Of a DNA stretch of 26,963 nt, positions 4,825-18,204 are shown piece after piece. The notes beneath the pieces are model-generated. The model worked only from the letters and a program-made list of their open reading frames with translations. It did no database searches and had not been told where the DNA came from. A program made the translations under genes and the position numbers. Within the stretch, counting starts at the first letter, position 1. Every line of letters begins with the position of its first letter. The stretch is taken from positions 1 through 26,963 of the forward strand of contig JAPLIF010000157.1 of the NCBI GenBank assembly GCA_026389255.1, read 5' to 3'. Source of the DNA: Cyanobacteriota bacterium (GTDB lineage Bacteria > Cyanobacteriota > Cyanobacteriia > PCC-6307 > Cyanobiaceae).

Positions 4825-6909
4825 TCAGGCTGGCGGAATGCGGGGGACTGGGGGGCTGGGGGTTGGAGTCCGGGGCCGGTAGTGGCTGAGGGTATCGAGC
4901 AGATCCTCCGTATCGACCGGCTTGATCAACACCCGATTCATACCGGCCTTCAATAGGGCGTTTTCGGATTCGAGAAACACATCCCCTGTCATGCCGATGA
5001 TGGGCAGTAGGTCGTAGCGGTGGTCCGGGCGATGGTCGCGGCGGATGCGCCGGGCCGCCTCCAGGCCACCGATACCGGGCATGGTCATGTCCATCAACAC
5101 CATCTCAATGGGATGGATGGCCATGAGCGCAAGGGCCTCCTCCCCACTGGCAGCAGCGAAGACCGTGGCGCCATGGGTTTCGAGGATCTCCCGCAGACAA
5201 TGGCGCAAACTCGGGTAATCCTCAGCCAAAAGAATGCGCAATCCCGCCAGGCGGCGGGCCCCTGGATCGATTGGAACCATGCCACGCCCCTGGGCCGGCC
5301 CATCAACGTCGGAACGGAGCCCTGATTCGGCCAACACCCCATTTTCGAGCACCTGCAAGGGCAGCAGGATGAAGAAACAACTGCCCCGGCCCCTTTGGCT
5401 ATCCACCAACAACTGGCCGCCAAGGGCCTGAACAATGTCGCGACTGATGAATAGCCCCAGGCCTGTTCCCTCTTCGTCGCGGGTGTGGACGTTGGCTAAG
5501 CGGTGAAAGGGCCGAAAGAGGCTGGCGATCTCGTCGGCTTCCAATCCAGGGCCCGTATCTTCCACGGCGATGCGTAGGGGATTGGCATCGGCGGTGCCGG
5601 GGGGCAGCAGGCTCCAATGCAAGCGGATCGTGCCGTGGCGGGTGAACTTGCCGGCATTGGTCAGTAGGTTGAGGATCACCTGCTTGAGCTTCATCGGATC
5701 AGTGAGAATGATCTCTGGCACATCAGCATCAATCTCCACCAGAAAGTTGAGTCGTTTACGCTCAAACTGAGGTGCTAGAATCTGGTAAAGAATAGTAGTT
5801 AGATCTCGCACCTGCACAGGCTCCAAGCGAATATTGGTCTGCTGGCCTAGGGGCCTCTGGGGGTCCAGCAAATCGTTGACCACATCCAGGGCGTGCTGAC
5901 TGGCCGAAAGGATGGCGCCATGCCTGGAACGATCATCCCGGTCGGACTGGGTGGCCAGGGCCTGATCGACATGGTTGCGAATCGCCGCAAGTGGTGTACG
6001 AATCTCGTGGCTCATGCAGCTGATCAGATTCTGGTTTTCAGCCAAAGCCTGGCGGGCGGCGGCGCCACTTTTAAGGGCCTGTTGTTCGCTGTCTTTGATC
6101 TGATCCATCAAGGTGGCCACAATCAGACCGGCTAGGCCACTGGTGATCACAAATAGATTGAGCCCATAATAGTTGGTTGCACCAGAATTAATGAATGGTC
6201 CTTCGCCCATACTGGTGGCCCAGAAGGTAACGACGGAGAGATAAAGGGCAGCAAAACAAGCTGCCAAGCGTCCGCGCACCAGTCCTGGAATCACCACCAG
6301 GGGCCGATAGAGATCCAGGTTGCTGGTGAGGGAAAGGCCTCCTTGGGTAACAACCACGAACAGACTGAGCCCTTCGACCATGATCAGGGCCGGCAACACC
6401 GCATCCACCAGGTTGTCGCGCAGGGAGCGACGGCGGCTGAACAAAATCAATAACAGGGGCGTGAGCTGGGCCTGGGCAATGCCGTTGCCCGACCACCAAT
6501 TGAGCCAATCCTGAGTGACAAAAAAGGAATGATCTGGGATGTCGCCGTACTGCAGGGCCCCCATGCCAAGGCTGGCGCTCAAGGGTTGCAGCACCAGAAA
6601 GACCAGGGCCACCAGCCACAACAGGTCGGACAGGCGCTTGAGGTCGGGGCGCAGGTTGAGATAACCAAAAGCAAAGGAACCGACTAGCCCTTCCAGCCCC
6701 ACGACGATTCCAGGCCAAAGGCCAGGACCGAACAAAATCACCGCCGCCAGGGCCAGGCCTTCCGGGGCGAAGAACACGGGCGTCACCACCTGATGGTCAA
6801 CATTCACCTGGAAGGAGGCCAGGCCAGAAAGGAAATAGAGAACAGCCAGCACGGAGGATTGCCATAGCTGCTCCTTTCCCGGTCGACAACGACGCAGAAA
6901 ATCAACCAT
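4825..6909 (-). CDS. Hybrid sensor histidine kinase: MASE1-like, HisKA, HATPase, REC
   Basis: 694 residues. Residues 15-270 hold about eight membrane segments with the MASE1-like signature FFAPEGLALAAVILFGPGLW (about 47-65). The phospho-accepting His301 is in CMSHEIRTPLAAI. The ATP-binding domain has the N-box NLLTNAGKF (Asn418), the G1 box EDTGPG (Asp451), an F box FRPFH and the G2 box GTGLGL (481-486). A C-terminal receiver domain has acidic residues Glu563/Asp564, phospho-acceptor Asp607 in VLMDMTMPG, Thr641 and Lys663. All catalytic residues are present, so it should be active as a membrane-bound sensor with internal phosphorelay. There is no DNA-binding output domain and no adjacent regulator or phosphotransfer gene, so its partner lies elsewhere. 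The Pro-rich last 15 residues are a tail. The signal sensed is unknown. Confidence 0.93.
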   Translation of the reverse strand: MVDFLRRCRPGKEQLWQSSVLAVLYFLSGLASFQVNVDHQVVTPVFFAPEGLALAAVILFGPGLWPGIVVGLEGLVGSFAFGYLNLRPDLKRLSDLLWLVALVFLVLQPLSASLGMGALQYGDIPDHSFFVTQDWLNWWSGNGIAQAQLTPLLLILFSRRRSLRDNLVDAVLPALIMVEGLSLFVVVTQGGLSLTSNLDLYRPLVVIPGLVRGRLAACFAALYLSVVTFWATSMGEGPFINSGATNYYGLNLFVITSGLAGLIVATLMDQIKDSEQQALKSGAAARQALAENQNLISCMSHEIRTPLAAIRNHVDQALATQSDRDDRSRHGAILSASQHALDVVNDLLDPQRPLGQQTNIRLEPVQVRDLTTILYQILAPQFERKRLNFLVEIDADVPEIILTDPMKLKQVILNLLTNAGKFTRHGTIRLHWSLLPPGTADANPLRIAVEDTGPGLEADEIASLFRPFHRLANVHTRDEEGTGLGLFISRDIVQALGGQLLVDSQRGRGSCFFILLPLQVLENGVLAESGLRSDVDGPAQGRGMVPIDPGARRLAGLRILLAEDYPSLRHCLREILETHGATVFAAASGEEALALMAIHPIEMVLMDMTMPGIGGLEAARRIRRDHRPDHRYDLLPIIGMTGDVFLESENALLKAGMNRVLIKPVDTEDLLDTLSHYRPRTPTPSPPVPRIPPA

Positions 6910-7189: not shown

Positions 7190-9145
7190 ATGGACCGAAC
7201 GGGCCCCGCCAGCGCCACCGCCGCCGAAAACGCCCTGGCCGCGATGCGGTCCTCCGTTTTCGGCACCGATCCAATGGCGCCGGCTCCGCCCGCCTTGCCC
7301 ACCATCCTGGCGCCGACCAATCCAAAGGCCCCGGTGAATGCGGGTCCCCACAACGGCACCAGGGACCCAGCCGATCTCGGCGATTTCATTGAGACCGCCG
7401 GGCTGCTGGAGTACGACCCTGAGGCGATCAGCCGCATCTACGCCGGCCATCCCCAGCGCCTGGCCCGCCGGCTGCGCCAGACCCTGATCCCGATCAGCCT
7501 GTATCTGCTGGGAGTGGTGAGCGACAACCTCACCGGCCAGCTCAAGGTGCCCGAACGGGCCCGCGCCCGGGCCCGCGAATGCGCCGAACTGCTGGCGGCC
7601 CTGGGGCCCGCCTTCATCAAGGCCGGCCAGGCCCTCTCCACCCGGCCCGACATCGTGCCGCCGCTCCTGCTCGAAGAACTGGCCCAACTGCAGGACCAAT
7701 TGCCGGGCTTTGATCCAGCGCTGGCCATGGCCTGCATTGAAGAGGATCTCGGTGCCCCGGTGGACAACCTGTTTGCCCATCTGGAGCGGGAGCCCATCTC
7801 CGCCGCCTCCCTGGGCCAGGTGCATCGGGGCGTCCTGCACAACGGCCAGAAGGTGGCCGTCAAGGTGCAACGGCCTGGCCTGCGGGAGCAGATCACCCTT
7901 GATCTCTACATCGTGCGCAATATCGCCGCCTGGCTGAATCGCCGGGTGGGGCTGATCCGCAGCGATCTGGTGGGGCTGATTGATGAACTGGGCCTCCGTG
8001 TGTTCGAAGAGATGGATTATCTCAACGAAGCCGCCAACGCCGAACGCTTCGCCACACTGCACGCCGCCAACCCCCGTATCGCCGTCCCCGCCATCTACCA
8101 CGAGGCCACCAGTCGGCGTGTGCTGACCATGGAGTGGATTGATGGCGTCAAACTCACCAACCTCGAAGCCGTACGAAACCTCGGCATCGATCCCAACGAG
8201 ATGGTTCAAGTGGGCGTGGACTGCAGCCTGCAGCAACTCCGGGAGGCCCGCACGGGACTGATCCAGGCGGTGGTCCACCTGGTCAACCGCAATTTCGGCG
8301 CCCTTTCCAAGGACTTTGTCAGCCTGGGATTTCTAGGAGAAGAGGTGAATCTAGAGCCGATTGTGCCGGCCTTCGAAAGCGTCTTTGGCCAAGCGATCGA
8401 GATGGGTGTCAGCCGCATGGATTTCAAGGCCGTCACCGACGATCTCTCCGGTGTCATGTATCGCTTTCCCTTCCAGGTTCCGCCTTACTACGCCCTGATC
8501 ATCCGTTCGCTGGTCACCCTCGAGGGGATCGCCCTCAGCGTTGATCCCGACTTCAAGATCCTGGGGGCGGCCTATCCCTATTTCGCCCGGCGCCTGATGG
8601 AAGATCCGGATCCGCAATTGCGCAGCAGCCTGCGGGAGATGCTCTTCGATGGCGATGAATTCCGCTGGGAGCGTCTTGAAAATCTGCTCAGCAGTGCCTC
8701 TTTACAACAACAACTCGACCTCGAAGGCCTGCTCGACCAGGTGACCGAATTTCTCTTTTCCGCCAACGCCGGCATGCTGCGGCGCCAACTCGTCGATGCC
8801 GTGGTAGCCCAAATGGACGGCCTGGCCTGGCGCACCACCCTGCAGCTGGGACGTCGCCTACCGGCCGCCCTCTTGCCCCCAGGTCTGCGCCAACGTCAGC
8901 AGCTGCCCGAATCCCTGGCCAGCGAACCCCTGCTTGACCTCGAGCCGATCCGACAACTGGTAACCATCCTGCGGGATCTCCCCAACTTCGAACCCCAGCT
9001 CCTGCTGCGGCGCCTACCCCGCCTCCTGGGCGAACCCGACCTACGGCGCATGGGGGCTGAAGTGGCGCGGGGACTGGCGGAAAAGGGAGTGGTGCGGCTA
9101 TTGCGAGACGTTTTGGTCGCCCCGGCGGGGTCGGGGGCGGCCTAG
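7190..9145 (+). CDS. ABC1/AarF/UbiB-family kinase-like protein lacking the catalytic loop
   Basis: 651 residues. The family (UbiB in bacteria, ADCK/COQ8 in mitochondria, ABC1K in plastids) is linked to quinone and lipid metabolism. Present are the family's KxGQ motif (KAGQ, 144-147), the Ala-rich loop SAASLGQVHRG (from 204), the nucleotide Lys225 in VAVKVQRPG and the ExD motif E274-M-D276. VGVDCSLQQL (341-350) then runs straight into REARTGLIQAVVHLVNRNF. In family members the segment between these carries the catalytic HxDPHPGN loop and the DFG metal site; both are absent. The frame stays open for 300 further residues. The first 65 residues are a Pro/Ala-rich extension, so the true start could be a later codon. 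The product is probably catalytically dead unless the sequence is in error. An exported DUF1400 gene follows after 31 bases. Confidence 0.85.
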   Translation: MDRTGPASATAAENALAAMRSSVFGTDPMAPAPPALPTILAPTNPKAPVNAGPHNGTRDPADLGDFIETAGLLEYDPEAISRIYAGHPQRLARRLRQTLIPISLYLLGVVSDNLTGQLKVPERARARARECAELLAALGPAFIKAGQALSTRPDIVPPLLLEELAQLQDQLPGFDPALAMACIEEDLGAPVDNLFAHLEREPISAASLGQVHRGVLHNGQKVAVKVQRPGLREQITLDLYIVRNIAAWLNRRVGLIRSDLVGLIDELGLRVFEEMDYLNEAANAERFATLHAANPRIAVPAIYHEATSRRVLTMEWIDGVKLTNLEAVRNLGIDPNEMVQVGVDCSLQQLREARTGLIQAVVHLVNRNFGALSKDFVSLGFLGEEVNLEPIVPAFESVFGQAIEMGVSRMDFKAVTDDLSGVMYRFPFQVPPYYALIIRSLVTLEGIALSVDPDFKILGAAYPYFARRLMEDPDPQLRSSLREMLFDGDEFRWERLENLLSSASLQQQLDLEGLLDQVTEFLFSANAGMLRRQLVDAVVAQMDGLAWRTTLQLGRRLPAALLPPGLRQRQQLPESLASEPLLDLEPIRQLVTILRDLPNFEPQLLLRRLPRLLGEPDLRRMGAEVARGLAEKGVVRLLRDVLVAPAGSGAA

Positions 9146-11459: not shown

Positions 11460-12605
11460 ATGAAGCTGGTGTGCTCCCAGGCCGAACTCAATGCCAGCCT
11501 TCAGCTGGTCGGTCGGGCCGTGGCGACCCGACCGACCCATCCGGTGCTGGCCAACGTGCTGCTTACCGCTGACGCCGCCACCGGGCGGCTCAGCCTGACC
11601 GCCTTCGACCTCAGCCTTGGTATCCAGACCAGCCTTCCCGCAGCGGTTGAAGCCAGTGGCGCCATCACCCTGCCGGCCCGCCTGTTTGGCGAAATCGTCG
11701 CTCGCCTTTCATCGGACAGTCCCCTCAGCCTCAGCTGCCTGGAGGGGGACGAGCAGGTGGAACTCACCAGTTCCGGCGGTAGCTACCGCATGCGTGGCAT
11801 GCCCGCCGATGACTTTCCCGACCTCCCCCTCAACCAGACCGGCACCTCGATCCGTCTTGATGCCGAGGCCTTGGTGAGGGGCCTGCGGGCCACCCTCTTT
11901 GCCAGCAGTGGCGACGAGGCCAAGCAGGTGCTCACCGGGGTGCACCTGCGCCTTGATGACGCAGGCCTCGAATGTGCCGCAACCGATGGCCATCGGCTAG
12001 CGGTCCTCCACCTGGCCCATGGGGCCACGGCCGCCAGCAGTGATGGTGAGCCCTTTGATGTCACCGTGCCCGCCCGCTCCCTCAGGGAGCTGGAGCGCTT
12101 GCTCAGCGGCCGGCCTTCCCAGGAGCCCCTCAGCCTCTTCTGTGACCAGGGGCAAGTGGTGGTCCTCTGGGCCGATCAGGTGCTCACCAGCCGCAACATC
12201 GATGGCGTCTATCCCAATTACGCCCAATTGATTCCAGCCAGCTTCAATCGCCTCGTGCGGCTGGATCGCCGTGGGTTCATCGCTGGCCTGGAGCGGGTGG
12301 CGGTGTTGGCCGATCAGCACAACAATGTGGTGACGATCAGCGCCGATCCGGCCGCCGCCAAGGTCACGATCCGCGCCGATGCCCAGGACGTGGGCAGTGG
12401 TTCGGAATCCCTGGCGGCCAGCATTGAAGGCGATCCCATCGACATTGCTTTCAATGTCCGCTATCTACTGGATGGACTCAAGGTGATGGGTGGCAGCGAG
12501 GTGGTGCTCAAGTGCAATGCCCCCACCACCCCTGCGGTCCTGGAACCCGTGGGCGAGCCGGATGCCTTCGTGTATCTGGTGATGCCGGTGCAGATCCGCA
12601 GCTGA
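11460..12605 (+). CDS. dnaN: DNA polymerase III beta subunit (sliding clamp)
   Basis: 381 residues from ATG at 11460. It forms the ring-shaped dimer that tethers DNA polymerase III and other proteins to DNA. The family pattern of three similar domains is visible. The start MKLVCSQAELNASLQLVGRA is followed by TRPTHPVLANVLL, then a central GVHLRLDDAGLECAATDGHRLA that is strongly diagnostic. NIDGVYPNYAQLIP lies in the third domain, and the C-terminus VYLVMPVQIRS matches the canonical ending. Length is normal. The next gene starts four bases after the stop, so the two are surely cotranscribed. Its place beside the proposed origin is as expected for cyanobacteria. Confidence 0.98.
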   Translation: MKLVCSQAELNASLQLVGRAVATRPTHPVLANVLLTADAATGRLSLTAFDLSLGIQTSLPAAVEASGAITLPARLFGEIVARLSSDSPLSLSCLEGDEQVELTSSGGSYRMRGMPADDFPDLPLNQTGTSIRLDAEALVRGLRATLFASSGDEAKQVLTGVHLRLDDAGLECAATDGHRLAVLHLAHGATAASSDGEPFDVTVPARSLRELERLLSGRPSQEPLSLFCDQGQVVVLWADQVLTSRNIDGVYPNYAQLIPASFNRLVRLDRRGFIAGLERVAVLADQHNNVVTISADPAAAKVTIRADAQDVGSGSESLAASIEGDPIDIAFNVRYLLDGLKVMGGSEVVLKCNAPTTPAVLEPVGEPDAFVYLVMPVQIRS

Positions 12606-13620: not shown

Positions 13621-13687
13621 CCCCCGGGGGTGAAGGGGGTGACGCGCTGTTGGAGACTCAGGAGCTGTCGATGCTGGCGCCGCTTTG

Positions 13688-15919
13688 GTGGACCCCACCC
13701 TGACCTTTTCGGTGCCCGATGCCCTGCGTAAGGAGGGGCTGAGCCAGGCCGATTACGACGAAATCGTGCGGCGCCTCGGCCGCGCCCCTAACCGGGCCGA
13801 GTTGGGCATGTTCGGCGTCATGTGGTCAGAGCATTGCTGTTATCGCAACTCCAGGCCCCTGTTGGCCCAGTTCCCCACCAGCGGTCCCCGCATCCTGGTG
13901 GGGCCCGGTGAGAACGCGGGCGTGGTCGATCTCGGCGAAGGTCAGCGCCTGGCCTTCAAGATCGAAAGCCATAACCATCCCTCGGCCGTTGAGCCCTTCC
14001 AGGGGGCGGCCACGGGCGTTGGCGGCATCCTGCGCGACATCTTCACCATGGGTGCCCGTCCGATCGCCCTGCTCAATGCCCTGCGCTTCGGGCCCCTCGA
14101 GGATCCCCGCAATGCCGGCCTGATGGAGGGGGTGGTGGCGGGCATCGCCCATTACGGCAATTGCGTTGGCGTGCCCACCGTGGGCGGTGAGGTGGGTTTC
14201 GACCCCAGCTATTCCGGCAATCCCCTCGTCAACGCCATGGCCCTGGGCCTGATGGAAACCGAGGACATCGTGCGCTCCGGTGCCGCCGGGATTGGCTATC
14301 CGGTGGTGTACGTGGGCAGTACCACCGGCCGGGACGGCATGGGGGGCGCCAGCTTCGCCAGTGCCGAACTCAGTGCGGCCTCCCTCGACGATCGCCCCGC
14401 TGTGCAGGTGGGGGACCCTTTCCTGGAGAAGGGCTTGATCGAGGCCTGCCTGGAGGCCTTCCAGAGTGGCGATGTGGTTGCCGCCCAAGACATGGGTGCC
14501 GCCGGCCTCACCTGCAGTTGCTCCGAGATGGCCGCCAAAGGGGGTGTGGGGGTCGAGCTGGATCTGGATCGGGTGCCGGCCCGTGAGTCAGGGATGACGG
14601 CCTACGAATTCCTGCTTTCAGAATCCCAGGAACGCATGTTGTTCGTGGTCAAACCGGGGCGCGAGGAGGCTCTGATGGAACGCTTTCGCCGCTGGGGCCT
14701 CCAGGCTGCTGTGGTGGGACGGGTGTTGGTCGAAAACGTGGTGCGGGTCCTGCGCGTGGTTCTGCCTGGGGGTCTGCTGTCCTGGGGGGAGGTGCTGCTG
14801 CGCCTGCTTGATGACCCCACCATCGCCAGCAAGCGTTGGGTCTGGCGCCAGTACGACCACCAGGTGCAAGCCAACACCGTGGTGCCCCCGGGGGGTGCCG
14901 ATGCCGCCGTTGTGCGCCTTCGACCCCAGCAGGGGGAGGGGGCGATGGCCCCTGGTCACCGGGGGGTGGCGGCGGTGGTGGATTGCCCCAATCGCTGGGT
15001 GGCCCTCGATCCGGAGCGGGGTGGCATGGCGGCCGTGGCGGAGGCCGCCCGCAATCTCAGCTGCGTCGGCGCCGAACCCCTGGCCGTTACCGACAACCTC
15101 AACTTTCCTTCCCCGGACACCGACACCGGCTACTGGCAGTTGGCCCAGGCCTGTCGCGGCTTGTCCCAGGCCTGTTTGGCCCTGGGCACTCCCGTCACTG
15201 GCGGCAATGTCTCCCTCTACAACGAAACCCGCCTGTCCGATGGCCGCCTCCAACCGATCCACCCCACCCCGGTGGTGGGCATGGTGGGCCTGGTCAGCGA
15301 TCTGAACCGGGTGCGGGGGATGGGTTGGCGCCAGCCGGGTGATGCCATCTGGCTGCTGGGCCTGGCGCCCGAGGACGGGGCCGCCGGGTCCGATGACCGG
15401 ATCAGCCTGGCGGGCAGCAGTTATCAGACGGTGATCCATGGCCTCTGCACCGGTCGTCCCCCCCGGATTGACCTGGATCTGGAGGTCCGGCTCCTGGAGC
15501 TGCTGCGGTGTGCCATCGGGTCCGATCTGGTCGCCAGTGCCCACGACCTCAGTGATGGCGGGTTGGCGGTGGCCGCCGCTGAAGCCTGTCTGGCGGGCGG
15601 CCTGGGGGCCTTCCTGGAGTTTCCAGCCGGTGGGGTGCGCCTCGACCGTCTGCTGTTCGGCGAGTCCGCCGGTCGCGTCTTGGTGAGCGTGCCGGTTGGG
15701 GTGGCTGCCGGTTGGCGGCAGCTGTTGTCTGAGGCGGCCACGGCCGGTGTTGCCGCCACTCGGCTGGGGGAGGTGGGGGCCCAGCCTGAGCTGATGGTGT
15801 CCCTGGGGGCTGACACTCTGTTGCGGCTGTCCCTGGAGTCCCTGCGGGACAGCTTTGAGGGGGCCATTCCCCGTCGCCTTGGGGGGCAGCCCCGTGGCGA
15901 TTGGCCACCGACGGAGTGA
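13688..15919 (+). CDS. purL: Phosphoribosylformylglycinamidine synthase subunit PurL
   Basis: About 743 residues, the size of the small PurL that works with separate PurS and PurQ subunits. It makes FGAM from FGAR, ATP and glutamine-derived ammonia, step four of purine synthesis. Diagnostic segments include [18 protein letters not shown] near residue 43 with the catalytic-region His, [18 protein letters not shown] (nucleotide and metal binding), [11 protein letters not shown], and [14 protein letters not shown] in the second half. The start is a GTG at 13688 or the TTG just before it at 13685; no in-frame ATG exists upstream before a stop at 13640-13642. An AGGAG at 13660-13664 sits too far from it but well placed for an out-of-frame ATG at 13671. 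purF follows after 93 bases. Confidence 0.96.
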
Positions 15920-17583: not shown

Positions 17584-18204
17584 CTAGGCGGCAATCGGCG
17601 AGATGTGCCCCCCCCCTTGCTGGGGGATGCCAGTGCGCAGGTAATTCACCACCAACCGATCGTGGGGATCGCTCAGACCCTCCCACAGCAGTTGGCGGAA
17701 CTGCACCAGGCTTAGCTGGTCCCCCTGGAAACGCCGCACCATCAGGCCGTGCTCCCTCGACCAGCCATCCAGTTGGGCCAAGGTCATGCCCTCCCGCCGC
17801 ACCCGCTCAGCCCGTACGAACCGTCCGCCGCCAGGCCCGCCGAAGACATTCTCCTGGGTCCAGAAGTGGTAACCGGGGTAGCCAGGCACCGGAGGGGCGG
17901 GAACTCCCAGGCTGTTCAGCACCACCACCAAGCTGGCCGCGCCGCAATAGGAGAGGTTGGCCTGGGTTTCGAAATCCTGGGATAGGGGGCCGTAGTCGGC
18001 CCGGGCATCACTGCCCAGCAGCAGCTTTTGACCGGCGGGTTCCCGCAGGGGGATCGGCGCCGCCGCCATCGCTTGGGGCGCCGCGCCTTGCCCCTGGCTG
18101 AAGCCTGGTTGCCAGGCGGATGCGACGACGACCTGCAGGCTGGCTCCCAGTAACAACCCCCAGGCCTTCCACCCGGGGGGGAGCAGGGGGTTTGGGCGAT
18201 TCAA
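17584..18204 (-). CDS. Phytochelatin-synthase-like protein, truncated after the catalytic His
   Basis: 206 residues. Phytochelatin synthases are papain-like enzymes with a Cys-His-Asp triad that cleave glutathione and, in eukaryotes, polymerise it into metal-binding peptides. Bacterial forms mainly do the first step. Cys87 in [16 protein letters not shown] and His200 in [10 protein letters not shown] match the triad, with a spacing of 113 against 106 in the Arabidopsis enzyme. The Asp expected about 18 residues after the His is absent because a TAG follows six residues after it. Residues 10-45 look like a signal peptide, suggesting export. The start is TTG overlapping the preceding gene's TGA by four bases (TTGA); no ATG precedes the signal. 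It is the last gene of the minus-strand group. It may be inactive or degrading. Confidence 0.75.

Follow-up and report, generated by a model that had tools for sequence, protein, structure and literature searches.

The ABC1/AarF/UbiB proteins (PF03109) are atypical kinases, and the solved relatives found by sequence are 7cy2, 5yjz, COQ8B (9tvk) and COQ8A (4ped). Small deletion errors, for their part, occur in fragmented draft genomes. The window, by which we mean the whole stretch of 26,963 nucleotides that was analysed, belongs to a cyanobacterial draft genome (G000) of 2.10 Mb in 376 contigs with a completeness of 78.8%, and it contains a gene of the ABC1 family with a junction inside it:

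7190..9145, forward strand: ABC1/UbiB (AarF) family gene, from the PF03109 match and the intact relatives P0002, P0003 and P0004 of 682–686 aa
8239..8240, forward strand: junction without 105 nt (35 codons with HADPHPGN and DFG) that are found in relatives, from comparison with relatives

The ORF at 7190–9145 encodes 651 aa as assembled, and the ABC1 profile PF03109 matches its product with an E value of 9.5e-55 and 185.8 bits (cut-off 22.9), covering only positions 1–191 of the 244 in the profile. The protein shares with the family FIKAGQ, ISAASLGQVH, VAVKVQ and EMDY, which we take to be the KxGQ motif, the Ala-rich loop, the nucleotide-binding lysine and the ExD motif respectively, and all four are read in the translation of the window, as the initial annotation had reported. 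It differs from the family in that, as assembled, it is without the 35 residues holding HxDPHPGN and DFG, and neither motif is present in the full translation. Residues 350 and 351 flank the junction at 8239/8240, with CAGCAACTC before it and CGGGAGGCC after it, where the protein reads from VGVDCSLQQL directly into REARTGLIQAVVHL (LQQL to REAR); the best-fitting nucleotide breakpoint against the relative G003 is at 8238/8239, one base away. The reading frame is intact and the remaining protein aligns normally to the relatives, with a shortfall of 105 nt or 35 aa, so the figure of roughly 35 residues given in the initial annotation turned out to be exact.

A scan of contigs gave 333 stretches encoding an ABC1 relative, and in all of the best 80 that were kept a regular expression found HxDPHPGN followed by DFG between the same flanking residues, which together with the translation confirms the in-frame loss of the catalytic loop and DFG that had been proposed at 8239/8240. 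When the window protein was aligned with the 80 relatives, chosen as ORFs holding DPHPGN (a choice that drops none of the 80), internal gaps of 8 or more residues across the 605 core columns were confined to the window. One relative (L008) has no more than an end gap in this alignment of 81 proteins, because its contig is cut. Since the segment is found in 80 of 80 relatives and the window has the only internal gap, the missing segment is more than chance divergence.

Two protein searches at E 0.001 or better gave 1223 and 7910 proteins, and the best 120 of each add up to 230 besides the window's own. The first of them (1223 matches) was centred on the junction, residues 318–375, and therefore an ungapped copy should rank near the top; among the best 120 of the 1223 the second-ranked match, behind the window's own protein, reached 92 bits against 111, and it has the segment. 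By regular expression the HxDPHPGN/DFG motif is present in 229 of the 230 other proteins that make up the best 120 from each search, and the sole exception, P0020, has DFC for DFG and no gap. The nearest of these proteins is P0002, a 33-member cluster, which agrees with the window protein at 635 of 650 aligned residues (97.7%) and contains the 35-residue segment. Among 400 genomes sampled from the family, a degenerate pattern of the junction peptide matched a single one, namely the window's own; the pattern requires Ala at a place where Ser is common among the relatives (RESRTG) and would miss the same deletion in such lineages. A second example of the ABC1 deletion was thus not found in any of 80 loci, 230 listed proteins or, by the exact pattern, 399 other family genomes.

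These results bear on the suggestion that the gene is a pseudokinase form conserved within the ABC1 family and serving a new function. The retention of the N-terminal ABC1 motifs and of the C-terminal 300 residues speaks for it, and the failure to find a second example in the 80 loci, the 230 listed proteins and the 399 other family genomes (the latter by the exact, Ala-requiring pattern) speaks against it, leaving such a conserved variant with hardly any probability. A natural pseudokinase is very unlikely, and the conserved natural variant that the initial annotation had considered is not supported, as the deletion is absent from all other relatives examined.

The search for ABC1 family genes in the window's own genome found two, the window gene and one on contig C80. 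The C80 gene (L106, near 4462) has 143 nt missing against both G002 and G003, with a frameshift shortly after HADPHPGN. Both detected ABC1 genes of the genome are therefore broken in the same domain, which first pointed to a problem beyond a single gene, and the intact paralogue that had been proposed as a check is not provided by the sole other ABC1 gene detected in the assembly. There are three to four ABC1 matches in each of the relatives G001–G005 and two in G006, and in view of the higher numbers in G001–G005 a further copy may sit in the unassembled part of G000.

The window itself has three more gaps against its relatives:

13685..15919, forward strand: PurL (FGAM synthase subunit II) gene, 744 aa, with a 150-nt gap at 14753/14754, against G002 and G003 and by alignment to 3viu
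6699..6700, reverse strand: 69-nt gap in the presumed histidine-kinase gene 4825–6909, against G001 and G002
17584..17586, no strand assigned: 137-nt gap against G003 at the 3' end of gene 17584–18204 (reverse strand), not clean against G002

The PurL gap corresponds to 50 aa that a solved PurL possesses: the alignment to 3viu stops at query residue 356 and chain residue 346 and restarts at query 360 and chain 384; the gap at 14753/14754 is probably another artefact in the same contig. The gene at 4825–6909 is presumably a histidine kinase by its sequence, and its gap at 6699, seen against G001 and G002 only, may be natural. Against G002 the gap near 17585 is 147 nt with 59 nt unmatched. Three of the four window gaps (105, 69 and 150 nt) have lengths divisible by three, as would be favoured if the deletions were natural, and this counts against an artefact. 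A gene at 1035–2582, presumably sulfatase-like by its CTAGR stretch, has no counterpart at the corresponding position of G002, which is probably ordinary accessory gene content.

Gaps of 60–200 nt were counted between G000 and three relatives, G001–G003, which are draft genomes too. Against G002 there are 11 clean deletions and one insertion in 88.4 kb at 88.6% identity, against G003 eight deletions and one insertion in 60.7 kb at 92.9% identity, and against G001 eight deletions and no insertion in 34.2 kb at 88.8% identity, these three counts being largely the same gaps seen again and not independent. The controls among the relatives gave two deletions and no insertion for G003 against G002 (68.2 kb, 89.4% identity), none of either for G001 against G002 (38.7 kb, 92.7%), and no deletion and one insertion for G001 against G003 (34.6 kb, 89.1%). 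With the window and C80 removed, both of which had been picked for their gaps, seven deletions are left in 59.0 kb between G000 and G002. Four of the 11 gap lengths against G002 are multiples of three, as chance gives without selection for the frame. The size class is not sharp, because larger gaps of 186 nt against G003 and of 202 and 341 nt against G001 also occur in G000.

A gap was called clean when the shorter side had at most 12 unmatched bases or when the gap lay within one HSP, and HSPs below 76% identity or 70 nt and chains below 800 nt were excluded. The sample comprised 32 of the 376 contigs of G000, three of them in part, of which 14 aligned to G002 stretches and entered the count; the contributing contigs besides the window and C80 were taken by number or for matching G002 stretches. 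Two of the G002 stretches searched, on C14 and C67, had been chosen for their ABC1 genes, and from G001 and G003 the contigs with the longer matches were taken and several with short ones left out. The two clean gaps between G003 and G002, of 129 and 168 nt, lie near a contig start (L124, G003:C46, at 311 and 411) and may be a similar error in another draft, or natural. On contig C266 of G000 (L168) a 95-nt gap at 2037, not a multiple of three, lies opposite a 516-aa ORF in the relative, which seems to resemble an M32 carboxypeptidase. Another gap on C266, at 124, is 138–144 nt depending on relative and method, and its effect on the frame is unsure. The stretch missing at position 1566 of C60 is covered in the relative by a short ORF of 77 aa only and may be non-coding.

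At 12455–12459 of C266 a sigma factor gene is without 90 nt, equal to 30 aa and to most of region 4; the gap lies between two stretches coding for RER, and the gene product matches only positions 33–50 of PF04545 (Sigma70_r4). In G001, G002 and G003 the counterparts retain region 4 in full and rank first among the Sigma70_r4 matches of their genomes; G000 holds five further Sigma70_r4 matches. As the counterparts are the best matches and those of G002 and G003 have a Lys/Ala-rich N-terminal part, the C266 protein would by its sequence be a group 1 (primary), RpoD-like sigma factor. Loss of PurL function together with loss of the primary sigma factor is not credible in one free-living cyanobacterium, and a living cell would not be expected to tolerate the set of gaps in PurL, the second ABC1 gene and the primary-looking sigma factor.

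The missing 105 nt are thus very probably an artefact of genome reconstruction and not a property of the living cell. This reading is preferred because similar gaps occur in excess in the sampled part of the genome and also affect the second ABC1 gene, PurL and the primary-type sigma factor, and because only four of the 11 lengths are divisible by three, the 97.7%-identical P0002 has the segment, and the exact junction pattern is found in one of 400 genomes, the window's own. A real and recent in-frame deletion in one strain, abolishing the ABC1 kinase activity and coinciding with assembly errors, would agree with the kept frame and with the normal alignment of the rest of the protein to its relatives, but it is improbable: the gap fits a class seen across the sampled assembly, with PurL and the primary-type sigma factor among the genes affected, the 97.7%-identical protein is intact, and internal gaps of eight residues or more are absent from the 80 proteins aligned with it. 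Even less probable is that both ABC1 genes detected had truly lost, in a real lineage, part of the catalytic domain, one in frame and the other by frameshift, amid a burst of deletions of about 100 nt across the genome.

Microhomology was measured at 12 junctions and is 0–6 nt at all of them and 0–2 nt at nine; at the ABC1 junction it is 0 nt against G003, and the short homology that the initial annotation had proposed to look for at the deletion ends is accordingly lacking there. The clear case of a repeat is the sigma factor junction near 12455 on C266, with 10 nt by HSP overlap and 4 nt by the best-fitting breakpoint. Near 8980 on C180 the HSPs overlap by 30 nt, yet the best-fitting breakpoint gives 0 nt. 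The low microhomology argues against collapse at an exact repeat, the simplest assembler error, and with 0 nt against G003 a repeat-mediated collapse is unsupported at the ABC1 junction. Among the three readings put forward in the initial annotation (a pseudokinase-like form, a recent deletion, and assembly collapse at a short repeat) the artefact is the part that stood, without the detail of the short repeat. The GC content of the deleted segments was also compared with that of their flanks, as a possible cause of drop-out, and showed no clear pattern (0.55–0.68 in the segments, 0.51–0.68 in the flanks, the segment being higher in eight of 12). Removal of Ns from scaffolds was considered as well, and no N was counted in the window or in eight further G000 loci, so that such a removal would not show directly.

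The assembly repeatedly skips stretches, mostly of about 70–150 nt, and no Ns mark them at the loci checked. Within the artefact reading the most likely route, and a fairly probable one, is that pieces which had been assembled separately were joined over short gaps in the sequencing and the gap was closed at the wrong length; we infer this to be the step that produced the ABC1 gap. The artefact reading also contains the possibility, which we regard as doubtful, that the junction is real in the DNA molecules, as a deletion chimera that arose when the genome was amplified or the library prepared. Since joins in a de Bruijn graph depend on k-mers in common, the microhomology of 0–2 nt at nine of 12 junctions and 0–6 nt at all 12, and the recurrence of similar-sized gaps at many sites, would suit such chimeras. 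Amplification chimeras are often inverted, whereas all 12 examined junctions are collinear, in a sample that was selected as collinear gaps.

Compared with the small deletion errors of fragmented drafts, the gaps of this genome are alike in being clean, in affecting genes expected to be essential, in not preserving the frame and in being absent from the relatives, and the G000 junctions differ from simple repeat collapse in having little or no repeat. A clean in-frame loss of catalytic motifs in a draft genome can mimic a new pseudokinase, and gaps of the same type in neighbouring genes that ought to be indispensable, here PurL and the primary-type sigma factor, quickly expose the likely artefact. 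Other odd "domain losses" in this genome deserve distrust for their part, and the organism itself most probably carries an ordinary catalytic-type ABC1 kinase.
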